A stretch of DNA of 64,000 bases from Agromyces mangrovi (GTDB taxonomy: Bacteria; Actinomycetota; Actinomycetes; Actinomycetales; Microbacteriaceae). The notes under the pieces were generated by a model. That model was not told the DNA's origin and ran no database searches. It saw only the letters and a list, made by a program, of their open reading frames with translations. Shown one piece after another: positions 9,455 to 54,359 of the stretch (position 1 is its first letter; each line of letters opens with the position of its first letter). The position numbers and the translations under genes were made by a program. The DNA is taken from the NCBI RefSeq assembly GCF_030296695.1, contig NZ_AP027737.1, forward strand, positions 744,001 to 808,000. Direction: 5' to 3'.

Positions 9455-10094
9455 CACGGGTGCTCCTCGCCGACGACCACGAGCTGCTCCGGAGCGGCCT
9501 CGTCTCGATCCTCGAGTCCGACCCGGAACTGGAGGTCGTCGGCGTCTGCGACGACGGCCCCGCGGCAGTGCGCGAGGCGGCGCGCCTCCGACCCGACCTC
9601 GTGCTCATGGACGTCGAGATGCCGGGCGGAGACGGCATCGCCGCGATCGGGCCCGTGCTGGAGGCCGTGCCGTCGACCCGGGTCATGGTGCTCACGATGT
9701 TCGACCTCGACGAATACGTCGCGGGGCGCTCCGCGCCGGGGCATCCGGATTCCTCATCAAGACCACTCCGCCCCGCGAGCTCATCGCGGCTGTGAAGGCC
9801 TGCGCGTCCGGCGAGTCGAGGTTCGGGCCGAGCGTGGTGAGCCGGCTCGTGCAGAGCTACGTCGAGCGTCCGGCGCCGGTGGGCGCCCCGGCCGGCGCAG
9901 CCGAGCTCACCCCACGCGAGCGGGACGTGCTCCGTGCGCTGGCGCGCGGCCTCTCCAACGCGGAGATCGGCGCGGAGCTCTTTCTGGCCGAGACGACGGT
10001 GAAGACCCACGTCACCCGCGTGCTGCTGAAACTCGGGGTGCGCGACCGCGTCCAGGCGGTCGTCGTCGCGCACACGTCGGGCCTCGCCGGCTGA
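9451..10094 (+). CDS. Response regulator, NarL/FixJ family, frame-shifted
   Basis: DNA-binding partner of the kinase just upstream, about 214 aa after restoring one base. The receiver domain has acidic DDHE and the phospho-Asp in RPDLVLMDVEMPG; the C-terminal LuxR-type helix-turn-helix reads LTPRERDVLRALARGLSNAE and ETTVKTHVTRVLLKLG. The frame breaks at the four-G run 9723-9726, after DLDEYV; the continuation ALRAGASGFLIKTTPPRELI lies in the next frame and one extra G joins them. Start is a GTG overlapping the kinase stop. It ends 8 bp from the convergent ATPase gene with no visible terminator. Regulon unknown; the divergent membrane-protein gene at 7616 is the obvious candidate. Confidence 0.85.
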
Positions 10095-35463: not shown

Positions 35464-36629
35464 CTAGGCGGCGTTGGCGAGCTCGGCGGCCTTGGCGGCG
35501 CCCTCGTCCATCGTCGCGGCGAGCGTGACCAGCGGGTGGTTCGCCTCGTTCAGGATGCGGCGACCCTCCTCGACGTTGTTGCCGTCGAGGCGCACGACCA
35601 GCGGCTTGTTCGCGGTCGAGCCGAGCTCGGCGAGCGCGCCCACGATGCCCTTGGCGACCGCGTCGCACGCGGTGATGCCGCCGAAGACGTTCACGAAGAC
35701 CGCCTTGACCTGCGGGTCGCCGAGGATGACGTCGAGGCCGTTGGCCATGACCTCGGCCGAGGCGCCGCCGCCGATGTCGAGGAAGTTCGCCGGCTTCACG
35801 CCGCCGTGCTCCTCGCCCGCGTAGGCGACCACGTCGAGCGTCGACATGACGAGGCCCGCGCCGTTGCCGATGATGCCGACCTCGCCGTCGAGCTTCACGT
35901 AGTTGAGGTCCTGCGCCTTGGCCTTCGCCTCGAGGGGTCGGCCGCGGCCGCGTCCTCGAGCTCGGCGTGCATCGGGTGGCGGAACTCGGCGTTCTCGTCG
36001 AGCGAGACCTTGCCGTCGAGGGCGATGATGTCGCCCTCCTCGGTCAGCACGAGCGGGTTCACCTCGACGAGCGTGGCGTCCTCGCCGGTGTACACCTCGT
36101 AGAGCTTCACGAAGACCGGCGCGACCTTGTCGACGATCTCGGCGGGGAACTTCGCGGCGACCGCGATCGCCTTCGCGCCCTCGAGGTCGAGGCCCGTGTT
36201 CGGGTCGACCTCGATGCGAGCGAGCGCCTCGGGCTTCTCGACCGCGAGCTGCTCGATCTCCATGCCGCCCTCGAAGCTCGTGAGCGAGAGGTAGGAGCGG
36301 TTGGCGCGGTCGAGCAGCACGGAGAAGTAGTACTCCTCGGCGATGCGAGCGCCGCCGGCGACCATCACGCGCTGGACGACGTGGCCCTTGATGTCGAGCC
36401 CGAGGATCGCCTTCGCGGCCTCCTCCGCCTCGTCGGGGGTCTTCGCGACCTTGACGCCGCCGGCCTTGCCGCGGCCGCCGATCTTCACCTGGGCCTTGAC
36501 GACGACCACGCCGCCGAGCTGCTCGGCAGCGGCGCGCACCTCCTCCGGGGTATCCGCGATGATGCCCGGCAGCACCGGCACCCCGTACTTCTCGAACACG
36601 TCTCTGGCCTGGTACTCGTAGAGATCCAC
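35464..36629 (-). CDS. sucC: Succinate-CoA ligase beta subunit, frame-shifted
   Basis: Nucleotide-binding partner of SucD, 388 aa after restoring one base, exactly the usual length. The ATP-grasp domain starts [20 protein letters not shown] and includes [16 protein letters not shown] and [20 protein letters not shown]. The C-terminal domain begins [20 protein letters not shown] and ends [14 protein letters not shown]. The frame breaks after AAAADP at the four-G run 35934-35937 (plus strand); one added base restores a continuous family sequence. Because this is a central metabolic gene, a sequencing error is likelier than true loss. First gene of the sucCD operon. Confidence 0.93.
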
Positions 36630-42479: not shown

Positions 42480-43766
42480 ATGCTCACCGTGACCGGCGCA
42501 CGTGCCGTCCTCGAAGCCCCCGGAGTCGTCCGCGACGGCGACGTCCACGCCGACAACGCGGTGATCGCCGCGTCCCAGGTCGACGGCGCCGAGGTGCTCG
42601 ACGCGACCGGCTGCGTCGTGACGCCCGGGCTCGTGAACGCCCACCACCACCTGCTGCAGTCGGCGTTCCGCACCCTGCCGGGCACGCGCAGCGTTCCCAT
42701 GCGCGACTGGCTGCCCGCCATGGCGAGCGCATATGCCGCCGCGGGCATCGACCCCGACCTGGCGCGGGCCGCCGCGCGGGTCGGCGTCGCCGAAGGGCTG
42801 CTCTCGGGGGTCACGACCGTCGCCGACCACCACCTCACCTGGCCGATGGGCGTCGACGATGTCGGCGTCGCGACGGCGGTCGCCGACGCCGCCCACGCGC
42901 TCGGCGGACGCCTGGCGTTCGTGCGCGGCTCGGCCCGTGACGACCCCGAGACCGCCGCGGCCTCGGCCGACGCGGTCGCCGAGGCGCTCGTGCCCTGGCA
43001 CGGCGGCGTCTCGGGTGACGGCATGCTGCAGGTCGCCGTCGGCCCGGCCGGCGTGCACAGCGACGTCGAGGCGACCTTCCGGCTCATGGGCGAGGTCGCC
43101 GCTCGGCGCGGACTGCGACGCCGCACGCAGTCGAACGAGCAGGTCGACGTCGAGGTCGCCGCCGAGCGCTACGGCCGCCGCCCGCTCGAACTGCTCGAGG
43201 AATGGGGCTGGCTCGCGCCCGACGTGACGCTCGCACACCTGTGCGACGTCGACGACGACGAGATCGGCCGCATCGCGGCATCCGGTGCCTCGGCCACGCA
43301 CGCCCCGGGCTGCGACGTCGTCATGGGGTGGGGCGTCGCCCCGGTCGCACGGCTCCGCGAGGCGGGCATCGCGGTCGGGCTCGGCACCTCGGGCGGCGGA
43401 TCCAACGACGCGGGCCACCTGCTCGCCGACGCGCGCCTCGCGATGCAGGTCTCGGGGCTGCGCGGCCCCGCGCTCGCCGCCGCCGACGTGCTGGCGATGG
43501 CGACCGCGGGCTCCGCCGACGGACTCGGGCGACCCGAGCTCGGCCGACTCACGCCGGGCTCGGCCGCCGACCTGTGCGTCTGGGACGTCTCGGGCGTCGC
43601 GGACGCGGGCGTCGCCGACCCGGTCGCCGGGCTGCTCTGGGCGGCGCCGGGGCGCCGTCCGCGCCACGTGGTCGTCGCGGGGCGGGTCGTGGTGCGCGAC
43701 GGCGTGCTCGTCACGGGCGACGAGCCGGAGATCGTCGCCGCACTGCGCGAGCGGGTCGGTCGTTAG
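42480..43766 (+). CDS. Amidohydrolase-superfamily deaminase-like protein with altered metal site
   Basis: A 428-aa TIM-barrel protein of the chlorohydrolase/guanine-deaminase branch. Present: the first-strand metal motif NAHHHLLQS (His55, His57), strand-5 Glu220 and strand-6 His253 (LAHLCDV). Missing: the strand-5 metal histidine (expected HTHxxE reads RTQSNE, Gln217) and the strand-8 aspartate (expected GTDG reads GTSGG, Ser304). Substitution of the strand-8 aspartate has a precedent in TrzN-like triazine hydrolases, but loss of the strand-5 ligand is unusual; metal use and activity are uncertain. It may follow a GAGAAT -10-like box 7 nt upstream. Its stop overlaps that of the convergent reductase. 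Best read as part of the adjacent catabolic cluster. Confidence 0.85.
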   Translation: MLTVTGARAVLEAPGVVRDGDVHADNAVIAASQVDGAEVLDATGCVVTPGLVNAHHHLLQSAFRTLPGTRSVPMRDWLPAMASAYAAAGIDPDLARAAARVGVAEGLLSGVTTVADHHLTWPMGVDDVGVATAVADAAHALGGRLAFVRGSARDDPETAAASADAVAEALVPWHGGVSGDGMLQVAVGPAGVHSDVEATFRLMGEVAARRGLRRRTQSNEQVDVEVAAERYGRRPLELLEEWGWLAPDVTLAHLCDVDDDEIGRIAASGASATHAPGCDVVMGWGVAPVARLREAGIAVGLGTSGGGSNDAGHLLADARLAMQVSGLRGPALAAADVLAMATAGSADGLGRPELGRLTPGSAADLCVWDVSGVADAGVADPVAGLLWAAPGRRPRHVVVAGRVVVRDGVLVTGDEPEIVAALRERVGR

Positions 43767-44710
43767 AGGTCGAGCACCAGCTTCGGGCAGGCCGAGCGCG
43801 AGCAGCAGATCATCATGCGGTCGTTCGCCCCCTGCTCCTCGTGGGTGAGGATCGAGTCGCGGTGGTCGACCTCGCCCTCGAGCACGGGCGTCTCGCACGT
43901 GCCGCAGGTGCCCTCGCGGCACGACGAGATCACGAACGCGTCGGTCTCCTCCTCGATCACGTCGAGGATCGACCGCTCGGGCGGCACGGTCACCGTCACC
44001 CCGCTCGCCGCGAGCTCGACCTCGAAGGACTCGTGCAGCACGGGCTCGCCCTGCTCGCGCGCCTCGAACCGCTCCACGTGCAGCGTGCCCGGCGCCCAGG
44101 ACGCCGACCGCGCCTCGAGCTCGTCGAGCAGGCCGTGCGGGCCGCACGCGAAGACCAGCTCGCCCGGCTCGGGCGCCACCGTCGCGAGGTCCATCCGGCC
44201 CGCGGCATCCGATGCGTGCACCCGCACCCGCTCGCCGAAGCCCGCGAGCTCGTCGAGGAACGCCAGGCCGCTCGCGCTCCGGCCGCAGTAGTCCAGGGTC
44301 CAGGGGGTGCCGGATGCCTCGGCCGCGGCCAGCATCGGCAGCAGCGGCGTGATCCCGATGCCGCCGGCGATGAAGCGGTAGGCGGGGGCATCCGTCATCG
44401 CGAAGTGGTTCCACGGGCCGCGGGCGCGCACGGCGGCGCCGTCGACGAGGTGCTCGTGCGCCCACGCCGAGCCGCCCCGGCCGTCCTCCTCGCGCAGCAC
44501 GGCGATGCGCCAGGCGCCGTCGTCGGCGGGATCGCCGCAGAGCGAGTACTGGCGCACCAGGTCGTCGCTCGCGAGCAGGTCCACGTGCGCGCCGGGCCGC
44601 CAGGCGGGGAAGGGCAGGCCGCCGACGCGGGCGAGCTCGACGACCGCGACCCGGTCGACGGGATCGGTGCGGCGACGCACCACGACGTCGAACTCGGGGG
44701 CGGCGTCCAT
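43763..44710 (-). CDS. Flavin reductase / ferredoxin fusion of the VanB/phthalate dioxygenase type
   Basis: Electron-transfer protein of 315 aa that passes electrons from NAD(P)H through a flavin to a 2Fe-2S cluster, normally to a Rieske oxygenase. Flavin binding is seen in QYSLCGDPADDGAW, nucleotide binding in RFIAGGIGITPLLPM and VFACGPHGLLDEL. The ferredoxin domain has Cys264, Cys269, Cys272 and Cys302/303 (SSCREGTCGTC then MICC). No oxygenase is in the window, so its partner must lie elsewhere or a cytochrome P450 may be used. It begins four bases after the stop of the XRE-cupin gene upstream, so both form an operon. Confidence 0.92.
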   Translation of the reverse strand: MDAAPEFDVVVRRRTDPVDRVAVVELARVGGLPFPAWRPGAHVDLLASDDLVRQYSLCGDPADDGAWRIAVLREEDGRGGSAWAHEHLVDGAAVRARGPWNHFAMTDAPAYRFIAGGIGITPLLPMLAAAEASGTPWTLDYCGRSASGLAFLDELAGFGERVRVHASDAAGRMDLATVAPEPGELVFACGPHGLLDELEARSASWAPGTLHVERFEAREQGEPVLHESFEVELAASGVTVTVPPERSILDVIEEETDAFVISSCREGTCGTCETPVLEGEVDHRDSILTHEEQGANDRMMICCSRSACPKLVLDL

Positions 44711-44714
44711 GCGG

Positions 44715-45314
44715 TCAGTCGTCCTCTCGTGCGGGCGCGGAACCCTTGATGTACAGGATGCGGAACGGCCGGCCGTCGCCCGAGCGCCAGCGGTGACGCG
44801 TGCCGCCCGGGTAGTAGATGGTGGTGCCCGCAGGCATGGTGATCGCGCGCTCGGCGATCTGCACCTCGGCGACGCCGTCGAGCACGTAGCAGAACTCCTC
44901 CTCGGGGTGCACGAAGTACTCCCCGAACACGGTGTTGTCGGCGGTGATCTCCATCGGGGTGAAGCCGTCGGGGCGTCCCGAGAACGCGCGCACCGACCCC
45001 TCGGCGTAGGTGCGGCCCGTCGTACCGCCGCCCGCGTCGACGACGACACCGTCGTCGCCGGGCAACTCGTCGGCACGTCCCGCGCGCGCGATCTCGGCGA
45101 ACAGCTCGAACTGCGTGGTCGAGAGCGCCGTGGCGATGCGGTCGAGCGAGGTGAAGCTGGGGCGCGCGCGGCCGTTCTCGACCTGGCTGAGGAAGGGGTG
45201 CGAGAGGCCGGAGCGCTCCGAGAGCTGCACGAGCGTGAGGCCGCGGTCGCGTCGGAGGGCGCGGATGCGACCACCGAGCAGCTCGGCCTGGTCGAGCGTC
45301 GCGTCCGTCGGCAT
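44715..45314 (-). CDS. XRE-family regulator with cupin sensor domain
   Basis: DNA-binding regulator of 199 aa: an N-terminal XRE helix-turn-helix (about 13-67, LVQLSERSGLSHPFLSQVEN) and a C-terminal cupin (about 110-190, VHPEEEFCYVLDGVAEVQIA, PGGTRHRW) that would bind a small ligand. Such proteins often control uptake and breakdown of amines and heterocycles. It is divergent from the CodA-like gene and importer, and lies next to a dyad in the shared promoter region. ATG 45314 has a GGAACGGAG ribosome site. Likely controls both flanking transcripts. Confidence 0.92.
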   Translation of the reverse strand: MPTDATLDQAELLGGRIRALRRDRGLTLVQLSERSGLSHPFLSQVENGRARPSFTSLDRIATALSTTQFELFAEIARAGRADELPGDDGVVVDAGGGTTGRTYAEGSVRAFSGRPDGFTPMEITADNTVFGEYFVHPEEEFCYVLDGVAEVQIAERAITMPAGTTIYYPGGTRHRWRSGDGRPFRILYIKGSAPAREDD

Positions 45315-45403
45315 CGGCTCCGTTCCTCTCGCTCATCGGGCGCTTTCCCCGGACCGAAATCCTCGGGAAACACGGTCGAAACGACCCATCCCTATCGTCG
45401 TCG

Positions 45404-45422
45404 ATGTTGACAGTATCAACAT
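45404..45422. promoter_or_regulatory. Operator-like dyad in the XRE/CodA-like divergent promoter
   Basis: ATGTTGA (45404-45410) and TCAACAT (45416-45422) form a perfect 7-bp inverted repeat over a 5-bp spacer. It overlaps a TTGATA -35-like box for the minus strand (with GATAGG 17 bp downstream) and contains TTGACA on the plus strand, so a protein here would cover both promoters. Probable XRE-cupin site. Confidence 0.6.
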
Positions 45423-45472
45423 TTCCGCACCGCTCGACGACGCGCGGCCCGCCACGTACCGAAGGTCATCGA

Positions 45473-46718
45473 GTGCACCCCCAGCCCGTCTCCCTGCTGC
45501 GCAACGCCCGACTCGCGACGGGCGAGCTGCGCGATGTCGCGCTCGACGGGGCGGTCGTGGCCGACGTGCTCCCGGCGGGCTCCGGGTCCGCCGCCGGCGC
45601 CGCGCTCGACCTCCGCGGGGCCCTCCTGCTCCCCGCCGGCGCCGAGCCGCACGCGCACCTCGACAAGGCGTACACGTGGGACGCGATCGAGCCGCCGTTC
45701 GGCGACCTGGTCGGCGCGATCGAGAGCTTCCACGCCTTCCAGGAGCAGATCACCGAGGACGACATCCTCGACCGCGCCCGCCGCGCCGCGCTCCGGCTGC
45801 TCGCCAACGGCACCACCGCGATCCGCAGCCACGTGAACCTCCTCCCCGGCGAGCGCCCGTTCCGCGGCGTCGACGCGATGGTGCGGCTGCGCACCGAACT
45901 CGACGGGCTGCTCGACCTCGAGCTCGTCGCGCTGCCGCCCGTCGGCATGGACGACGCGACGATCGAGGCGGCCCTCGACCGCGGGCTCGACCTGGTCGGC
46001 GGCGCCCCGCACCTCGACCCTGCCCCCGACGCCGACGTGCAGCGCCTCGTCGCCCTCGCCGAGCGCCGCGGCATCGGCATCGACCTGCACACCGACGAGT
46101 CGCTCGACGGCCCGGTGACCATCACGGGCTTCGCCGCCGCCGTGCGCGACTGGCCCGCCGACCGCGTGCGCACCGCCGGCCACAGCGTGCGGCTCGGCAC
46201 GCTCGGCGCCGACGACCTGCGCGAGGCGGTCGACGCCGTCGTGGCAGCCGGCATCGGCGTCGTCGGCCTGCCGATCACGAACCTCTACCTGCAGGGCTGG
46301 GAGCACCCCGTGTCGACCCCGCGCGGCATCACCGCGCTGCGCGCGCTCATCGATGCCGGCGCGATCGTCGGGGCCGGCGCCGACAACGTGCGCGACCCGT
46401 TCAACCCGATCGGCCGCAGCGACCCGTTCGAGACCGCCGCGCTGCTCGTCGCCGCCGGCCACCTCGGGCTCGAGGAGTCGTGGGACCTCGTCTCCACCGG
46501 CGCCAGGCGCGTCATGGGCCTGCCCGAGGCGGGGCCGACCCCGGCGCCGCCGCCGAGTTCGTCGCGGTCCCCGCGTCGAGCGTGGGCGAGGCGATCGCCG
46601 AGGCCCCGGCCACCCGCACCGTCATCCACCGCGGACGCGTCGTCGCCCGCAGCACCGTCGCACAGACCATCGCCACGCCGGGGGCAGTCCCGGCGGGCTC
46701 CCTCGAGGAAAGGGGTGA
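45473..46718 (+). CDS. CodA-like (cytosine-deaminase-type) amidohydrolase, frame-shifted
   Basis: Metal-dependent deaminase or hydrolase acting on a heterocycle, about 415 aa once repaired. All CodA ligands are seen: EPHAHLDK (His60, His62), LHTDE (His206, Glu209), GHS (His237) and GADNVRDPF (Asp304). The N-terminus is set at GTG 45473 (MHPQPVSLL) with AAGG 8 nt before; the ATG at 45404 is inside the operator. The frame breaks at the four-C run 46539-46542 (family frame continues GAAAEFVAVPAS), and a second base is needed near 46712-46715 to reach the TGA at 46716-46718. Read as given, it would fuse with the ABC ATPase, which I reject. First gene of the import and catabolic operon. Confidence 0.82.
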
Positions 46719-46726
46719 GCGCCGAC

Positions 46727-47500
46727 ATGGCCATCACCGAACCCGCCACCACGACCACGGAGACGAGCACGCTGCTCGACTTCCGCGACGTGCAGCTCAC
46801 CTATCCGAACGGCACCGTCGCGCTCTCGGGCGTCGACCTCACGGTCGAGCGCGGCGAGTTCGTCACCGTGGTCGGGCCGAGCGGATGCGGCAAGTCGACG
46901 TTGCTGCGCATCGCATCGGGGCTCGAGCAGGCGTCGCAGGGCGTCGCCTCGGTCGCGACCGACCGCGTCGGCTACGTCTTCCAGGATGCGACGCTGCTGC
47001 CCTGGCGCGACGTGCAGTCGAACGTGGAGCTGCTCGCCGAGCTGCAGTGGCAGACGAAGGCCGAGCGCCGCGCGAAGGCGAAGCAGGCGATCGACCTCGT
47101 CGGCCTCACCGGCTTCGAGCAGCACCTGCCCCGCCAGCTCTCGGGCGGCATGCGCATGCGCACCTCGCTCGCCCGCTCGCTCACGCTCGACCCCGAGCTG
47201 TTCCTCTTCGACGAGCCGTTCGGCGCGCTCGACGAGATCACCCGCGAGTACCTGAACGACGAGCTGCTGAAGCTGTTCGCCGCGCAGCGGTTCGGCGGGC
47301 TGTTCATCACCCACTCGGTCTCCGAGGCGGTCTACCTCTCGACCCGGGTCATCGTGATGTCGGGGCGGCCGGGCCGCATCGTCGAGTCGTTCGACGTGCC
47401 GTTCCCGATGCCGCGCGACCCCGAGATCCGCTACACCGCCGAGTACGCCGCCCTGGTCGGCGAGGTCTCGCACGCACTCCGGGAAGGACACGGCGCATGA
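46727..47500 (+). CDS. ABC importer ATPase, NitT/TauT type
   Basis: ATP-binding subunit of an importer, 257 aa. Walker A GPSGCGKST, Q-loop VFQDATLLPWRDV (typical of nitrate/taurine/pyrimidine importers), signature LSGGMRMRTSLARSL and Walker B LFLFDEPFGALDE, with THSVSEAVYLSTRV as the H-loop. ATG 46727 is preceded by GAGGAAAGGGG. It overlaps the permease start (ATGA), so all import genes are translationally linked. Confidence 0.94.
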   Translation: MAITEPATTTTETSTLLDFRDVQLTYPNGTVALSGVDLTVERGEFVTVVGPSGCGKSTLLRIASGLEQASQGVASVATDRVGYVFQDATLLPWRDVQSNVELLAELQWQTKAERRAKAKQAIDLVGLTGFEQHLPRQLSGGMRMRTSLARSLTLDPELFLFDEPFGALDEITREYLNDELLKLFAAQRFGGLFITHSVSEAVYLSTRVIVMSGRPGRIVESFDVPFPMPRDPEIRYTAEYAALVGEVSHALREGHGA

Positions 47501-48423
47501 GCAACGACACCGAGCAGGCCCGGGCGCAGGCCCCGGCGGAGGCGCAGGCCACCACCGATGAGCTGGCCGAGGAGGTCCCCACGCCCGAGGTCGTCGAGCA
47601 CGAGCTCTCGCCCGACACCGCCGCACCGGTGCCGCTGCGTCGTCGCCGCTCGCGCGGCTTCGCGACCTGGGGCCCGCCGCTCGCGGTCGCCGCGCTCATC
47701 ATCGGCCTCTGGTACTTCGTCGGCGCGGTCATCCTCGACCCGTCGAAGTCGTACCTGCTGCCGCCGCCGCACGACGTCATCGCAACCTACTTCGACCCGA
47801 ACCTCGGGCCGGAGATGTTCGAGGCGCTCTGGAACAGCGCGGTGGTCGCGCTCACGGGCCTCGCCATCGCGATCGTGCTCGGCGTCGTCTGGGCGATCGC
47901 GATGAACCAGGCGAAGTGGATCGAACGCTCGCTCTACCCGTACGCCGTGATCCTCCAGACCATCCCGATCCTCGCCCTCGTGCCGCTCATCGGCTTCTGG
48001 TTCGGGTTCGACTTCACGGCGCGCGTCATCGTCGCCGTGCTGATCGCGCTGTTCCCGATGGTGTCGAACACCCTGTTCGGCCTCCAGTCGGTCGACGCGG
48101 GCCAGCGCGAGCTGTTCACCCTCCAGCGGGCCAACCGCTGGACGGTGCTCAAGAAGCTGCAGTTCCCGGCGGCGCTCCCGGCCATCTTCGCCGGCATGCG
48201 CATCTCGGCCGGGCTCGCGGTCGTCGGCGCCATCGTCGGCGACTTCTTCTTCCAGCGCGGCACGCCCGGCATCGGTGCGTTGATCTCGAAGTACCAGGCC
48301 CGCCTCAACGCGGATCCCCTGTTCGCCTCGATCATCCTCGCGTCGCTGTTCGGCGTCGTCGTGTTCTGGTTCTTCGGCTGGCTCGGCAAGCGGGTCGTCG
48401 GCAAGTGGTACGACTTCGCCTGA
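47497..48423 (+). CDS. ABC importer permease, NitT/TauT type
   Basis: Membrane subunit of the importer, 308 aa. A 60-residue acidic N-terminal tail (EQARAQAPAEAQATTDELAE) leads to six hydrophobic helices, with the family stretch PYAVILQTIPILALVPLIGF and the EAA loop RANRWTVLKKLQFPAALPAI. A 100-bp space with a partial inverted repeat and three CACCATC copies follows, before the binding protein. Confidence 0.93.
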   Translation: MSNDTEQARAQAPAEAQATTDELAEEVPTPEVVEHELSPDTAAPVPLRRRRSRGFATWGPPLAVAALIIGLWYFVGAVILDPSKSYLLPPPHDVIATYFDPNLGPEMFEALWNSAVVALTGLAIAIVLGVVWAIAMNQAKWIERSLYPYAVILQTIPILALVPLIGFWFGFDFTARVIVAVLIALFPMVSNTLFGLQSVDAGQRELFTLQRANRWTVLKKLQFPAALPAIFAGMRISAGLAVVGAIVGDFFFQRGTPGIGALISKYQARLNADPLFASIILASLFGVVVFWFFGWLGKRVVGKWYDFA

Positions 48424-48523
48424 CCGACCGGCCGGATCCACCGGGGTGCACGCATCGCTCGTCGCCCCGGCGCACCACCTCACCATCGCACCATCACCGC
48501 ACCATCCACCAAGAGGAGAACCC

Positions 48524-49693
48524 ATGCGCAAGCACACGTCCCGGGCGGCCGTCGCCGTCGGCTTCATGGCCGGCACGCTCGCCCTCGCCTCGTGCGCGTC
48601 GACCGGCGACGCGGGCTCGGAGGACACCGGCTCCGACGAGATGACGATCGGCTCGATCGACCTCGCCGCGGCCGGCTGCCCCGCCGACATCCGCATCCAG
48701 ACCGACTGGAACCCCGAGTCGGAGCACGGCCACCTGTACGAGCTCGTCGGGCCCGACCCCGAGATCGACGACTCGATCAAGTCGGTCACCGGCCCGCTCT
48801 ACGCGTCCGGCGAGTACACCGGCGTCGACGTGACCATCCTCGCGGGCGGCCCGGCGACCGGCTTCACGCAGCCGAACGCGCAGATGTACAACGACGACTC
48901 GATCTTCATGGCGTACGTCGGCACCGACGAGGCGATCGCCCACGCGGGCGACCTGCCCACCGTCGGCGTCTTCGCGCCGCTGGAGAAGGACCCGCAGATG
49001 ATCATGTGGGACCCGGAGACGTACCCCGACGTCGACGGCATCGCGGGCCTCGGCGAGGAGGGCGTGACGGTCCGCGTCTTCCCGGGCGGCACCTACATCG
49101 ACTACTTCGTCGGCGTGGGCATCCTGTCGGAGGACCAGATCGACTCGACCTACGACGGCCTGCCCGCCGTGTTCGTGTCGGAGGACGGCGCCATCTCGCA
49201 GCAGGGCTTCGCCTCGGCCGAGCCGTTCATCTACGAGAACGAGGTCCCCGAGTGGGGCAAGCCGGTCTCGTACGAGCTGATCAACGACGCGGGCTACCCG
49301 AAGTACGCGGCCGTGATGTCGCTGCGTCCGGACGACGTCACCGAGTACAGCGACTGCCTCACCGAGCTCGTGCCGGTGCTGCAGCAGGCCGAGCTCGACT
49401 TCTTCGACGACCCGACCGAGACCAACGAGCTCATCCTCGAGCTGGTCGACGCGTACGACACCGGCTGGGTCTACTCGGCCGAGGTCGCGGAGTACTCGGT
49501 CGCGACGCTCCAGGCGGAGCTCGTCGGCAACGGTCCCGACGACACGCTGGGCAACCTCGACGAGGCCCGCGTGCAGGAGCTGTTCGACATCGTGGTGCCG
49601 ATCTACACCGAGCAGGGCTTCGAGATCCCCGAGGACCTGAACGCTGAGGACATCTACACCAACGAGTTCATCGACGAGTCGATCGGGTTCTGA
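48524..49693 (+). CDS. NMT1/THI5-like substrate-binding lipoprotein
   Basis: Solute-binding protein of the importer, 389 aa. A lipoprotein signal ends at Cys24 (LALASC). The opening of the mature domain, RIQTDWNPESEHGHLYELVG, matches the DWxPN/EHxGLY start of the THI5/NMT1 family, which binds pyrimidine- or flavin-like heterocycles; the later stretch ASAEPFIYENEVPEWGKPVS is also typical. The exact ligand is unknown, but the neighbouring deaminase fits a heterocycle. The ribosome site AGAGGAG lies 6 nt before ATG 48524. An imperfect hairpin (49701-49734) follows. Confidence 0.88.
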   Translation: MRKHTSRAAVAVGFMAGTLALASCASTGDAGSEDTGSDEMTIGSIDLAAAGCPADIRIQTDWNPESEHGHLYELVGPDPEIDDSIKSVTGPLYASGEYTGVDVTILAGGPATGFTQPNAQMYNDDSIFMAYVGTDEAIAHAGDLPTVGVFAPLEKDPQMIMWDPETYPDVDGIAGLGEEGVTVRVFPGGTYIDYFVGVGILSEDQIDSTYDGLPAVFVSEDGAISQQGFASAEPFIYENEVPEWGKPVSYELINDAGYPKYAAVMSLRPDDVTEYSDCLTELVPVLQQAELDFFDDPTETNELILELVDAYDTGWVYSAEVAEYSVATLQAELVGNGPDDTLGNLDEARVQELFDIVVPIYTEQGFEIPEDLNAEDIYTNEFIDESIGF

Positions 49694-49700
49694 TCGATTC

Positions 49701-49734
49701 GCGCGGCGGTCCGGCTCCGGCCGGGCCGCCGCGC
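49701..49734 (+). terminator. Hairpin after the binding-protein gene
   Basis: Arms 49701-49715 and 49720-49734 pair at 14 of 15 positions around a 4-nt loop, 7 nt past the stop. It may limit transcription into the enzyme genes that follow, so that binding protein is made in excess. Confidence 0.55.
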
Positions 49735-49772
49735 CCGTTCCCACCCACCCTTCCCCGCATCTGGAGCGCACC

Positions 49773-50516
49773 ATGACCGCAGCACGTCGCCTCGAGGGTC
49801 GCCGGGCGATCGTCACCGGAGCCGCGCGCGGCATCGGTCGCGCGATCGCCGAGCGGTTCGCCGCCGAGGGGGCGTCGGTCGCGGTGCTCGACCTCGATGC
49901 GGATGCCGCCGAAGCGACCGCCGCCGAGATCGGCGCACGCGCCTTCGGGGTCGACCTGGCCGACCACGACGCCGCCCGTGCGGCGGTGCACGAGGCATCC
50001 GCTGCCCTCGGTGGCCTCGACGTGCTGGTGAACAACGCCGGCATCCTGCGGCTCGGCCCCCTGCTCGAGATCACCCCCGACGAGTGGGACCTCGTGCAGC
50101 GCGTCAACGCCCGGTCCATGCTCTCCACGACCCAGGCGGCCGCCGCCGTCATGGTCCCCGCCGGCGCCGGCCGCATCGTCAACCTCGCGAGCATGGCCGC
50201 GAAGTCCGGCGGCGCGAACGAGGCCGCCTACGCCGCGTCCAAGGCGGCCGTGGTCGCGCTGACCCGCGCGACCGCCCTCGAACTCGGCCCGCACGGCATC
50301 ACCGCGAACGCGCTGTGCCCGGGCTACATCCTCACCGACATGGGCGCCGCCACCCGCACCGATGACGACGTCGCACGCTGGTCGGCCCGCTCCCCGCTCG
50401 GCCGGCTCGGCGACCCCGCCGACGTCGCCGGCGCCGCGCTCTTCCTCGCCTCCGACGACGGGGCCTACCTCACCGGGCAGGCCATCAACGTCACCGGCGG
50501 CATGATCATGCACTGA
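49773..50516 (+). CDS. Short-chain dehydrogenase/reductase
   Basis: Classical SDR of 247 aa that oxidises or reduces an alcohol/ketone with NAD(P). Motifs: TGAARGIGRA for the cofactor, NNAGIL, catalytic Ser in NLASMAAKSGG and YAASK in the active site (AAYAASKAAV). The usual C-terminal end is present (LTGQAINVTGGMIMH). In this cluster it may oxidise an alcohol intermediate. GGAGCG lies 4-5 nt upstream. Confidence 0.92.
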   Translation: MTAARRLEGRRAIVTGAARGIGRAIAERFAAEGASVAVLDLDADAAEATAAEIGARAFGVDLADHDAARAAVHEASAALGGLDVLVNNAGILRLGPLLEITPDEWDLVQRVNARSMLSTTQAAAAVMVPAGAGRIVNLASMAAKSGGANEAAYAASKAAVVALTRATALELGPHGITANALCPGYILTDMGAATRTDDDVARWSARSPLGRLGDPADVAGAALFLASDDGAYLTGQAINVTGGMIMH

Positions 50517-50530
50517 ACGGAGATCCACGC

Positions 50531-51874
50531 ATGTCCACGACCCCCGACCCGACCGCCCTCGTCGCGGAGCTCACCGAACTGCTCGGCGCACGCGGGGTGA
50601 GCGTCGACCGCGCGACCCGCGAGCGGGCGTCGGTCGACGGCTGCGCGCTCTCCCCTGTCGTCAGCGCCAAGCTGCCGCTCGGGCTCGCCGACCTGGTCGC
50701 ATACCCCGCGAACGCCGAGCAGGTGGCGCTCGTCGTGCAGGCCGCCGCCCGGCACGGCGTGCCCGTGACCCCGCGCGGCAAGGGCACCGGCAACTACGGC
50801 CAGGGCATCCCGATGTCGGACGGCCTCGTGCTCGACCTGAGCCGCGCCCGCGCGATCGTCGAGGTGGGCGACGGCTTCGTCACCGCCGAGGGCGGCGCGG
50901 TCATGGCGCAGATCGAGAACGCGGCGTGGGCGGCGGGGCAGCAGCTGCTCATGTACCCGTCGACCGCCCAGTCGACCCTGGGCGGCTTCCTCTCGGGCGG
51001 CTCCGGCGGCACCGGGTCCATCGCCCACGGCGTCATCGCCGGCGGACCCTTCGTGATCGCGCTCGACGTCGTGCACGCCGACGGCACCGGCCTGCACCAC
51101 GTGACGGGCGACGAGGCGCAGGAGTACCTGCACAACTACGGCACGGCGGGCATCATCGCCCGCGCCACGGTCGCGCTCGAGCCGCTGCAGCCGTGGCGCG
51201 CGTTCTACGCGAGCTTCGACGCCGACGCGTTCCCGGCGGCGCTCGGCCTCCTCATGCCGTTCGCAGACCTCGAGCCGACGCCCCGACTGGTCTCGACCGA
51301 CCTGCCGACGCTCGCCGACGCGCTGCCGTCGAACCCCGGCATCCCGGCCGGGCGGGTGAGCCTGCGCGGCATCCTCGACGAGGCATCCGTCGCCGCCGCG
51401 ACCGAGCTCGTGGAGGCCGCGGGCGGGCGGGTCGAACTGGTGACCGAGGGCGCCAAGGAGGTCATGCGGCTCAGCATGATCTCGTACAACCACCCGATCG
51501 AGTGGCTGCAGAAGGCGTACCCGGGCGAGTACTTCCACGTCGAGGTCGGCGGCATGGCGCTCATCGACCGCATCGACGAGGTGCACCGGGTGTACACCGG
51601 CGCGATGCTGCACGCCGAGGCCCAGAAGGGCCGCCCGATCGGCATGCTCGCGGGCCGCTACGAGAGCGAGGAGACCGTGCTCGCGGGCATGGCCGCGCTC
51701 GGCGAGCTCGGCGTGCACACGCACAACCCGCACCAGTGGTTCGTCGACGTCCGCGTCGAGGAGACCAGGGCGCGCAAGGCGGTGACCGACCCGGCGGGCA
51801 TCCTGAACCCCGGCAAGCTGCCCGAGGCGGATGCCGCGACGAACCCGCTCATGTACGGCAAGGCGTCGGCGTGA
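50531..51874 (+). CDS. FAD-binding oxidoreductase, VAO/GlcD type
   Basis: Flavoprotein dehydrogenase or oxidase, 447 aa. The PCMH FAD domain shows VAYPANAEQVALVVQAAARH, PRGKGTGNYGQGIPMSDGLV and STLGGFLSGGSGGTGSIAHG; the C-terminal cap ends AVTDPAGILNPGKLPE, which is the classic GlcD/D-lactate dehydrogenase ending. Substrate unknown, probably a hydroxy-acid or alcohol from the catabolic route. Its stop overlaps the next start (GTGA). Confidence 0.92.
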   Translation: MSTTPDPTALVAELTELLGARGVSVDRATRERASVDGCALSPVVSAKLPLGLADLVAYPANAEQVALVVQAAARHGVPVTPRGKGTGNYGQGIPMSDGLVLDLSRARAIVEVGDGFVTAEGGAVMAQIENAAWAAGQQLLMYPSTAQSTLGGFLSGGSGGTGSIAHGVIAGGPFVIALDVVHADGTGLHHVTGDEAQEYLHNYGTAGIIARATVALEPLQPWRAFYASFDADAFPAALGLLMPFADLEPTPRLVSTDLPTLADALPSNPGIPAGRVSLRGILDEASVAAATELVEAAGGRVELVTEGAKEVMRLSMISYNHPIEWLQKAYPGEYFHVEVGGMALIDRIDEVHRVYTGAMLHAEAQKGRPIGMLAGRYESEETVLAGMAALGELGVHTHNPHQWFVDVRVEETRARKAVTDPAGILNPGKLPEADAATNPLMYGKASA

Positions 51875-52643
51875 GCCGTCGTCTCGACGAGCGCAGCGGC
51901 CCGTGGGTCGCCGAGCACCTCACCGCCGATTCCATGGTCGTCGTGCCGACCGGCGCGATCGAGCACCACGGGCCGCACCTGCCGCTCGCGACCGACCGCA
52001 TCATGGCCGAGGCGGTCGCGGCCGCCGCGGTCGAGCGCGCCGCGGCGGCGGGCGTCGACGCGTGGCTGCTGCCGTCGCTGGCGTACACGAAGTCCGACGA
52101 GCACGCCTGGGCCGCGGGCACGATGTGGCTGTCGGCCGAGACGTTCCACGCCACGCTCGTCGACCTCGGCCGCTCGATCGCGGCGACGCCCGCGCGGCGC
52201 GTGGTGTTCCTCAACGGCCACGGCGGCAACGTGGCCCCGCTCGGCGTCGCGCTGCGCGAGCTGCGTCGGCGGTTCGGGCTGCAGACGTTCCTCACCGGCA
52301 TCCGAGTGCCCCCGGCGACGGCGACGAGGGCGGCGACGAGCTCGGCATGGGCATCCACGGCGGGCACGGCGAGACCTCGCTCCTGCTGCACCTGCGGCCC
52401 GATCTGGTCGACCTGTCGGCTGCGGAACGCGCCGTGCCCGAGCACCTGCTCGACACCCCGATGATCGGGTTCGCTGGTACCCCGGTCACGTTCGGCTGGT
52501 TGAGCGACGACTTCGGCACGGGCGGCGTGATCGGCGACCCGACCCGGGCCAACGCGGCGCACGGCGCGGCGCTGTTCGAGGCATCCCTCGACCAGGCCGC
52601 CCGCGCACTCGGCGAGGTGGCGCGCTTCCGCGCCGCCCGGTAG
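51871..52643 (+). CDS. Creatininase-family amidohydrolase, frame-shifted
   Basis: Metal-dependent hydrolase opening a cyclic amide or formamide, about 257 aa after restoring one base. Metal ligands are seen in VPTGAIEHHGPHLPLATD and NGHGGNVAPL; the C-terminal HGGHGETSLLLHLRPD belongs to the same fold. The frame breaks at the five-C run 52309-52313, after GIRVP; one added C gives the continuous GIRVPPGDGDEGGDELGMG. The GTG at 51871 overlaps the FAD-gene stop. In this setting a role in opening a heterocycle ring is attractive but unproved. The family also includes enzymes of mycofactocin and archaeal riboflavin biosynthesis, which do not fit here. Confidence 0.85.
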
Positions 52644-52653
52644 GAGAGGAACC

Positions 52654-53310
52654 ATGCACCACGACGACCCGGCGTTGCCGCCCGTCATCATCACGAGCAC
52701 CAACCGCTTCGGTCACGACCAGGAGCACCCCGACGAGGTGCTCGCCGACCCGATGGAGCTGCTCGCCGCGTGGCTGCCCGCCAACGACGACGAGCTGCGC
52801 CCCCTGATGACGCTCACGACCATCGGTGCCGACGGCTACCCGGACTCGCGCAGCGTGCTGCTCAGCGACCACGACGAGCGCGGCATCACGTTCCACACCG
52901 ACGCGCGCACCCGCAAGGCGCGCGAGCTCGCGGCCGACGGGCGGGTCTCGATCGTGGTCGCCTGGGTCGAGCACGCCCGACAGCTCACGATCGCGGGCGA
53001 CGCCGTGCAGGTGCCGGCCGAGGAGGCCGCCGCCGTGTTCCGCGCCCGATCGCGGTACCTCCAGCTGCTCGCGTGGATGAACTCGTCCGAGCTCGCGCAG
53101 CTGCCGCGTGCCGAGCGCGTCGCACGCTGGGAGGCGTTCGCGGCCGAGCACCCCGACGGCGAGCTCGACCCGCCGCCGCACTGGGTCGGCTACCGGGTGC
53201 GCCCGCACCGCCTCACGTTCTGGCGCGGCGACCTCGAGGGCCCGAGCAATCGGGTCGAGTACACGCGGGACGCCTCCGGTGGGTGGACGGCGGCACGACT
53301 GCCGGGCTGA
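52654..53310 (+). CDS. Pyridoxamine-phosphate-oxidase-like FMN protein
   Basis: Flavoprotein of the PNPOx split-barrel family, 218 aa, close in length and layout to PdxH: MTLTTIGADGYPDSRSVLLS for FMN binding, THRTD-like FHTDARTRKARELAAD, RQLTIAGDAVQVP and the C-terminal dimerisation stretch PHWVGYRVRPHRLTFWRGD. The substrate in this cluster could be a pyridoxine-like or other heterocycle, or it may simply make PLP. ATG 52654 has TAGGAGAGG upstream. It is last in the plus-strand operon and is separated from the convergent MTHFR-family gene by 27 bp. Confidence 0.88.
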   Translation: MHHDDPALPPVIITSTNRFGHDQEHPDEVLADPMELLAAWLPANDDELRPLMTLTTIGADGYPDSRSVLLSDHDERGITFHTDARTRKARELAADGRVSIVVAWVEHARQLTIAGDAVQVPAEEAAAVFRARSRYLQLLAWMNSSELAQLPRAERVARWEAFAAEHPDGELDPPPHWVGYRVRPHRLTFWRGDLEGPSNRVEYTRDASGGWTAARLPG

Positions 53311-53337: not shown

Positions 53338-54359
53338 TCAGGCCGCGACGCCCGTGATGCCGTCGGCCACCTCGGCGACCGCCTCCGCGAACGCCAGCTC
53401 GCCGCCCGGGCCCGAGCCACCCGACAGGTCGATGCCGTCGACCCCGTCGATCTCGAGCAGTTCCTCGGCGAGCGCGATCGCGGCGTCGATGCCCGCTCGA
53501 CGCGGGTCGGGCGCGCCGGCGATGCCCTGCATGAATCCTGCCGGCAGCACGAGGCCCGGGAAGGCGTCGAGCGCACTCGCGCTCTCGACGTCGAAGACGA
53601 CCGGCACGCACGCGATGAAGCGCAACTCCGAACCGGCGTCCTGCGCGGCGCGCACGAACCGGCGCACGGGGCGGTGCCGCCGCAGTGGTCGATGAAGCAG
53701 ACATCCGCGCCCGCCGCCTCCTTGACGCGCAAGCGCGCGACCCGATCGCCGACGGGCGGCGCCGCCGGCGCCTCGGCCACCGACACGAGGTGGCCCGCGC
53801 CGCGCGCCACCGCCGCCAGCTCGACCCCGTCGAGGTCGAACACGGGCATGGCGTCGGGGCGGTGCCCGGCGCTCGTGTGATCGCCCGTCACGCAGTGCAC
53901 CGCGGCGGCGCCCGCGACCGCGAGCCCCGCGACCTCGCCCTCCAGCGCGACCCGGTTGCGATCGCGGCAGTTCACGCCCGACCACACCGCGATGCCCTGC
54001 CGGCCGAGCAGCACGGCGCGCAGGCTCGGCGGGTACTGCACGCGCGCGTCCGGCGAGTCGCCCGCGAGCACCGCGTCGACGCGGCCCGACAGGATCGACG
54101 CGCACGCGGCGAGTGCGTGCTCGTCGGCCGCCCGCGCGGGCAGGTCGGCCACCACGAGCCGGCCCGCCGCGAGCCGTTGCATCGTCGCCTCCGCGGCCGA
54201 CGTGCGCGGCCCGGGCGGCACCGGGTGCACGCCGTCGACGCCCTCCCACGGCCGCGTCTCCCGGTCGAGGAAGGCGCACGGGAACGACCCCGCCTCGCAG
54301 CTCCCGTCGGCTCCCACCCCGCCGCACGGGCCGTACTCCATCAGCTTCGGACACCCCAC
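53338..54359 (-). CDS. Methylenetetrahydrofolate-reductase-family protein, frame-shifted
   Basis: About 340 aa after restoring one base. It starts with a cysteine-rich module (GCPKLMEYGPCGGVGADGSC, then PCAFLD) of the type fused to MTHFR-like proteins, followed by a TIM barrel with SGRVDAVLAGDSPDARVQYP, VHCVTGDHTS and VSVAEAPAAPPVG that suggests folate/C1 binding. The frame breaks at 53668-53671 (plus strand, four G): IDHCGGTAP continues in the other frame as VRRFVRAAQDAGSELRFI. The start is uncertain: GTG 54359 lies 14 nt past the stop of the upstream glycerophosphodiesterase gene. A role in disposing of one-carbon units released by the cluster is inference. Confidence 0.75.

Follow-up and report, generated by a model that had tools for sequence, protein, structure and literature searches.

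A gene cluster of soil actinobacteria that appears to import and degrade a purine- or pterin-type nitrogen-ring compound

A gene set of the soil actinobacterium Agromyces mangrovi, grouped in many relatives, appears to direct the import and breakdown of a purine- or pterin-type nitrogen-ring compound, part of which is probably fed to one-carbon metabolism. It lies within a window, i.e. the whole stretch of DNA analysed, of 64,000 nt (forward-strand positions 744,001 to 808,000 of contig NZ_AP027737.1, assembly GCF_030296695.1, which is approximately 95% complete). The favoured reading, held at a probability of about one half, is a regulated unit that takes up and catabolises a purine-type base, whether a purine itself or a closely related bicycle such as a pterin; this base is quite possibly N-substituted. 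The gene set described in the initial annotation is confirmed here, and its interpretation as an import-and-degrade cluster for a nitrogen heterocycle is supported by the gene order kept in relatives, the shared operator, the THI5-type fold of the binding protein G and the CodA-type motifs of the amidohydrolase D. Scatter of the genes had been set beforehand as grounds for abandoning this claim; comparison across relatives found the order not to be scattered.

The loci compared were picked via G or the amidohydrolase A, hence part of the co-occurrence is a selection effect. A was found in two of 396 genomes in a sample of the phylum and 19 of 396 in a sample of the order, which implies that it is largely confined to one order. 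A third amidohydrolase (c4) adjoins the cluster in L038, L082, L139, L141 and L143, and has no close relative in the A. mangrovi genome, where the best match is 31%. No published account of such a cluster was found among the matches listed in open-licence PMC full text, although one may be in print.

The regulator, operator and importer

The XRE-cupin regulator C (44715..45314, minus strand) is separated from gene D by an operator dyad, ATGTTGA-N5-TCAACAT (45404..45422, without strand). This dyad is shared by two divergent transcripts, and its core, TTGA-N5-TCAA, is conserved in many relatives. The core was not found in the Kineosporia-like (L070-L075) and M. testaceum-like (L111-L120) loci, these group labels being guesses, or in several others, so regulation may differ there. 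Counting against a purine-type substrate, no TTGA-N5-TCAA site is present within the 19.9 kb examined at the A. mangrovi purine locus, approximately 130 kb from the cluster.

The importer comprises a NitT/TauT-type ABC ATPase (E, 46715..47500), a permease (F, 47497..48423) and the binding protein G (48524..49693), all on the plus strand. The THI5/NMT1-like character ascribed to G holds for its predicted fold, which matches that subfamily best among binding proteins, but not at the level of family searches: no Pfam or NCBIfam family, including Pfam NMT1, was matched at E 0.001. When the predicted structure was compared using VIA-align, ThiY, 4nmy and Thi5 entries took ranks 1-6 and 8. G nevertheless differs from the ThiXYZ importer (ThiY, PDB 3ix1) and the THI5 family in sharing at most 22% identity over the aligned part, and in its genetic company, which in many relatives is purine catabolism. 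As ThiY and THI5 proteins bind thiamin-type pyrimidines rather than purines, the fold itself counts against a purine-type ligand.

Enzymes of the cluster and the one-carbon link

Of the two amidohydrolases to which deamination had been attributed, D remains a credible candidate and A is less so. D (plus strand; first part 45473..46516 in frame 2, last part 46525..46716 in another frame) is CodA-like, and its orthologs retain the HxH-x-x-K, HxDE, H and D motifs shared with cytosine deaminase CodA and AtzC, although the first part reaches 148.6 bits where its best model requires 403. A (42480..43766, plus strand) is a COG0402-type protein of the same amidohydrolase subgroup as TrzN and 8-oxoguanine deaminase, but falls far below the 532-bit cut-off of the 8-oxoguanine deaminase model NF006055 (268.4 bits; 256.1 bits for the L016 ortholog). 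Of the ligand set HxH, His, His, Asp, which we take to bind metal in this family, the third His is replaced by Gln in all 57 orthologs with a residue there (one of the 58 having a gap), and the Asp by Ser in 58 of 58; in A itself these are Q217 and S304. The two 8-oxoguanine deaminases compared with these orthologs have H and D at both positions. With two metal ligands replaced in every ortholog that has a residue there, A is, judged by sequence, no ordinary deaminase. A separate A. mangrovi protein, which shares 71% identity with one that passes the NF006055 cut-off, is a better 8-oxoguanine deaminase candidate, and on these three grounds that function was rejected for A.

J (plus strand; 51871..52314 in frame 1, then 52311..52640 in another frame) does belong to the creatininase family, as had been proposed: both pieces match the Pfam Creatininase domain, and the L016 ortholog scores 222.7 bits against a cut-off of 31.3. 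The attributed opening of a cyclic amide is a guess, as 47 of 49 J sequences carry NGHGGN (the motif was not found in the other two) in place of the creatininase NGHxEN, which reads NGHYEN in the solved enzyme. K (52654..53310, plus strand) is a PNPOx/PhzG-like flavoprotein, rejected as a PNP oxidase at 124.7 bits against the cut-off of 180 for PdxH (TIGR00558); it is just 0.4 bits short of a broader subfamily model (NF004231, 128.6 against 129). The remaining plus-strand enzymes are a short-chain dehydrogenase/reductase (H, 49773..50516) and a FAD_binding_4 oxidoreductase of the GlcD/VAO type (I, 50531..51874), whose nearest solved relative is PDB 6v42; no paper containing this code was found in open-licence PMC full text.

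Gene X (53341..54359, minus strand, frameshifted near 53667) and the one-carbon link lie outside the cluster as initially delimited. In several relatives X adjoins K, or sits between A and K on one strand. Its predicted structure has the methylenetetrahydrofolate reductase (MTHFR) fold, with 30 of ranks 1-31 in the fold comparison being named MTHFRs and rank 22 an uncharacterised methyl-THF-binding protein. Most members share the RDRN and TGD motifs with the MetF type; X differs from it in being 11-18% identical to solved MTHFRs, in having an extra Cys-rich N-terminus, and in score, the L016 ortholog reaching 68.3 bits against a cut-off of 453. FchA-like and FolD-like genes are also neighbours in relatives. 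The FchA-like protein scores 50.2 bits against a cut-off of 275, which counts against the favoured reading, as does the possibility that the FolD and GlyA genes next to the cluster are just housekeeping genes. The labels FolD, GlyA, SucC, Suf and QcrA were assigned by eye.

Association with purine genes

The substrate class had been left open within nitrogen heterocycles; the heterocycle stands, but the neighbours in relatives, which include xanthine-dehydrogenase-like (XDH-like) and XdhC-like genes, xanthine permease, uricase and allantoinase, point to something purine-like. Family scores fix no substrate for the XDH-like and XdhC-like proteins themselves, which counts against the favoured reading: those scanned (XDH-like, 466.6 and 468.6 bits, cut-off 780; XdhC-like, 160.4 against 350 and 86 against 161.6) fall below the NCBIfam equivalog cut-offs. 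Without correction for shared ancestry, a molybdenum hydroxylase is found in all 54 Microbacterium genomes with A. Against the favoured reading, the two genes are far apart in several of these, e.g. G955, G861 and G988.

A further point against it is that uricase is rarer in Microbacterium genomes with A (4/54) than in those without (69/193; Fisher 1.8e-5, shared ancestry uncorrected), two of the 73 matches, both from genomes without A, being under the cut-off. Hence the product need not be urate, and feeding of uricase was rejected as a general rule for this genus. In Agromyces, uricase is present in 9/9 genomes with the binding protein and 35/51 without (p = 0.096, shared ancestry again uncorrected). 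Genes of the known aerobic purine degradation clusters (xdh, xdhC, uricase, allantoinase, HIU hydrolase and OHCU decarboxylase) lie near A-K in up to 11 of 58 loci, the highest figure being that of uricase. A-K differ from those clusters in being additional to that pathway, and uricase was not found in 50 of the 54 Microbacterium genomes with A.

A proposed route and its alternatives

The following order of catabolic steps is a guess. Acting at the dyad, C would repress transcription in both directions until its cupin domain takes up a ligand; G, F and E would bring in the base, D would take off an exocyclic amino group, and an XDH-like enzyme would hydroxylate a ring carbon. A, with its changed metal site, might displace a further substituent of the ring, I and H might carry out an oxidation or reduction at a side group or ring bond, and J might hydrolyse either a ring amide or a formamide. 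Tetrahydrofolate would carry a one-carbon unit derived from the substrate, for processing by X, joined elsewhere by the FchA-like and FolD-like proteins, and nitrogen would leave as ammonia or via a ureide route. It is tentatively proposed that this is an undescribed, largely uricase-independent route of the Actinomycetales for a purine- or pterin-type base, needing an XDH-like enzyme and combining A with its remodelled metal site, J as a ring or formamide hydrolase, and X as a dedicated MTHFR through which a one-carbon group (methyl, formyl or formimino) passes to tetrahydrofolate. On this proposal, N-methylated purines released by RNA turnover, 7-methylguanine for instance, would suit both the likeness of A to 8-oxoguanine deaminase and the presence of the one-carbon genes.

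Catabolism of pterins or folate fragments is possible, if unlikely. D (or A) would deaminate an imported pterin and the XDH-like enzyme would hydroxylate it; after rearrangement or opening by J, K and H it would join purine breakdown at the level of xanthine, X and the FchA-like protein being recruited pterin-binding enzymes. Xanthine dehydrogenases accept pterins and bacterial pterin deaminases exist; the predicted fold of X, the FchA-like and FolD-like neighbours, the molybdenum hydroxylase association and the dispensability of uricase in Microbacterium are all consistent with this. However, A matches TrzN (206.6 bits) and 3hpa (194.7) better than it does 2paj (142.3), which we take to be a pterin-type deaminase, no hydrolase specific for folates or pterins was noticed, and no paper found in open-licence PMC full text contained 'pterin deaminase' together with 'xanthine dehydrogenase'.

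Alternatively, the compound catabolised would be a thiamin-type pyrimidine (HMP, FAMP or thiamin fragments), imported by G in the manner of ThiY, deaminated by D, oxidised at its hydroxymethyl arm by H and I and opened by J. This would suit the fact that G is closest in fold to ThiY and a protein with bound thiamin, as well as its W-x-P-x-x-x-H motif, which aligns with 4nmy at a non-significant E of 0.1. Such a route is improbable, leaving unexplained both the purine-related neighbours and the 54/54 co-occurrence. The splitting in this assembly of D, J and X, three of the twelve genes of the cluster, could indicate a cluster decaying in the A. mangrovi strain through real frameshifts; this is distinctly doubtful, given that coding composition continues to either side of the breaks in D and J, that no break occurs in L015, which shares 96-98% identity over J and X, and that another gene of the window is likewise split.

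The reductase B (43763..44710, minus strand), a flavin/2Fe-2S protein of the phthalate-dioxygenase-reductase type, occurs in 45 of 58 loci. The solved chains that it matches best are the reductase half of self-sufficient P450s (258.9 bits) and phthalate dioxygenase reductase (172.6 bits), in keeping with a model in which the oxygenase noted as missing in the initial annotation is encoded elsewhere and attacks the ring first. The approximately 95% complete genome gave no P450 family match, and the PF00355 search gave no oxygenase component of the kind found in Rieske systems: its three proteins were judged on inspection to be a ferredoxin-like piece of the Suf type, a small Rieske protein and one similar to QcrA, none resembling an oxygenase large subunit. 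A scan of 1,202 called genes for Rieske and P450 motifs matched a single P450-like gene, in L043. With B also missing from the Kineosporia-like clusters (a guessed label), L017 and L026, this model is very unlikely and, as far as the P450 and Rieske classes searched are concerned, the missing oxygenase no longer stands as a gap in the core.

If the favoured reading of a unit for a purine-type base is true, many soil, plant-associated and marine actinobacteria would have a second route to purine- or pterin-type bases as a source of nitrogen and one-carbon units, now hidden by annotation under 'amidohydrolase family protein', 'FAD-binding oxidoreductase' and similar labels. Several enzyme subfamilies would gain testable roles, and the promoter-operator could be used to find the inducer.

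Gene content and reading frames

Family scans bear out the gene list that the initial annotation proposed for 42480..53310, in a host genome (G000, C1:744001-808000) that is 95.35% complete. The predicted products are a TrzN/8-oxoguanine-deaminase-like amidohydrolase (A), a reductase of the phthalate-dioxygenase-reductase type (B), an XRE-cupin regulator (C), a CodA-like amidohydrolase (D), an ABC importer (ATPase E, permease F and binding protein G), an SDR (H), a FAD_binding_4 protein (I), a creatininase-family protein (J) and a PNPOx-like protein (K). Just past the cluster's originally drawn end, on the opposite strand, lies a gene (X, 53341..54359, -) classed as MTHFR-like from a scan of its ortholog in locus L016.

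The reading frame shifts within each of D, J and X. Both J and X are unbroken in L015, which is 96-98% identical to the window over these two genes, and intact counterparts of D are found in L016 and L032 (71-73% identity). Because a succinyl-CoA synthetase beta-like gene outside the cluster (35464-36629, -) is also split into two frames, with a break at about 35895, these changes are likely to reflect indel errors of the assembly. A response-regulator-like gene (9460-10094, +) is likewise called as two abutting pieces.

Conservation and a candidate operator

The order and strands of the window (A+ B- C- D+ E+ F+ G+) are kept in 20 of the 36 loci retrieved with the binding protein, as the proposed import-and-degrade cluster had been expected to show in relatives; a 21st, L046, has the A-G set in pieces. 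Among the genera that these records name are Agromyces, Demequina, Rhodoglobus, Salinibacterium, Pseudolysinimonas, Herbiconiux, Microbacterium, Myceligenerans, Schumannella, Dietzia and Krasilnikoviella. One labelled Stenotrophomonas maltophilia (L027) bears the actinobacterial cluster and may be a contaminated assembly. P0015, a protein 77% identical to A that is assigned to the plant Rhynchospora breviuscula, is probably bacterial contamination of the plant genome. A itself was found in 19/396 genomes of an order sample, 2/396 of a phylum sample and 54/247 of a Microbacterium sample.

Besides the window, 69 loci were analysed, 58 with A at 60% identity or more, among which L080 and L127 seemingly repeat the genomes of L038 and L037. 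With the other genes scored at a 42% identity cut, and many loci incomplete at their ends, these 58 contain D in 55, E in 54, F in 51, G in 49, I in 49, B in 45, J in 44, K in 34, C in 29, H in 22 and the X family in 20. Across 35 loci, A, D, G, I and J correlate in their pairwise distances (r 0.62-0.86; none of 999 permutations as high), as expected for a jointly inherited unit; shared species history also yields such correlation.

A perfect dyad between C and D (45404-45422) occurs once in the window. Its core, TTGA-N5-TCAA, was detected at 33 sites in 31 of the 69 loci (1,249,053 bases searched), the two repeated genomes included. Thirty sites fall in the C-D interval or immediately upstream of either gene, those of L018 and L046 being assigned from gene positions and those of L081 and L050 adjoining one gene only; of the remaining three, two separate C from E (L048, L049) and the last is upstream of G (L036). 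Control searches of the same loci gave 0-5 sites for TTGA/TCAA with spacers of 2-4 and 6-9 bases, and 0-6 for three other palindromic words with spacers of 2-9. Among the 69 loci, the core was not found in Kineosporia-like, M. testaceum-like and some others. The dyad fits a putative autoregulated operator of C.

Variant loci and purine-catabolism neighbours

In three acidimicrobial-type loci (L041, L043, L045; families scanned in L041), D, E, F, G and J form a rearranged core accompanied by two luciferase-like genes and a fatty-acid-desaturase-like gene, possibly a different oxidative branch. A distant importer version (binding protein 35-36% identical) in Microbacterium lacus SDZm4 and Microbacterium sp. 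BR1 (L048, L049) has an XRE-cupin gene and a TTGA-N5-TCAA site, and adjoins enolase-superfamily-like, epimerase-like and malate-synthase-like genes, named by eye. Another variant, L139 (G1063), has a flavin-reductase-like gene, a second FAD oxidase-like gene and a third amidohydrolase (c4).

In relatives, the unit's neighbours include genes for uricase, allantoinase, HIU hydrolase and OHCU decarboxylase, which pass their model cut-offs, and for XDH-like, XdhC-like and guanine-deaminase-like proteins, which miss theirs. Across the 58 loci, the XdhC-like gene is present in 21 (adjoining A in 19), uricase in 11, XDH-like in 10 and allantoinase in 8. Beyond J, L141 has an MFS gene, a third amidohydrolase and an esterase-like gene, then H, X, K, XDH-like genes and a protein of the hydantoinase/carbamoylase family (TIGR01879, 269.5 bits, cut-off 204) that scores under the cut-off of the allantoate amidohydrolase model; L143 encodes a pbuX-type permease (532.9 bits, cut-off 414.15). 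In the window's own genome, a purine locus about 130 kb away from the cluster (651-660 kb) combines genes for uricase, allantoinase and XDH-like and XdhC-like proteins with one whose product is 71% identical to an 8-oxoguanine deaminase; the operator core was not found around it (19.9 kb examined).

Association with a molybdenum enzyme

By counts read by eye from lists of the 247 Microbacterium genomes, with Fisher tests that ignore kinship, a PF02738 molybdenum hydroxylase is present in 54/54 genomes with A versus 89/193 without (8e-16), and uricase is rarer with A (4/54 versus 69/193; 1.8e-5). At least 16 of the 54 have the hydroxylase gene within 8-93 kb of A; in others it is distant or on another contig. 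In Agromyces, uricase occurs in 9/9 genomes with the binding protein versus 35/51 without (p 0.096). The hydroxylase and uricase counts therefore tie the pathway to a molybdenum enzyme, and not always to uricase.

Conservation, the operator, predicted folds and co-occurrence uphold the import-and-degrade proposal in outline. The gap seen in the lack of an oxygenase for B is not a core feature, and the proposed range of nitrogen-heterocycle substrates can be narrowed. We infer the substrate, the order of steps and the reaction of each enzyme; the best-supported reading is that the unit carries out regulated import and breakdown of a purine-type base, yielding a one-carbon product.
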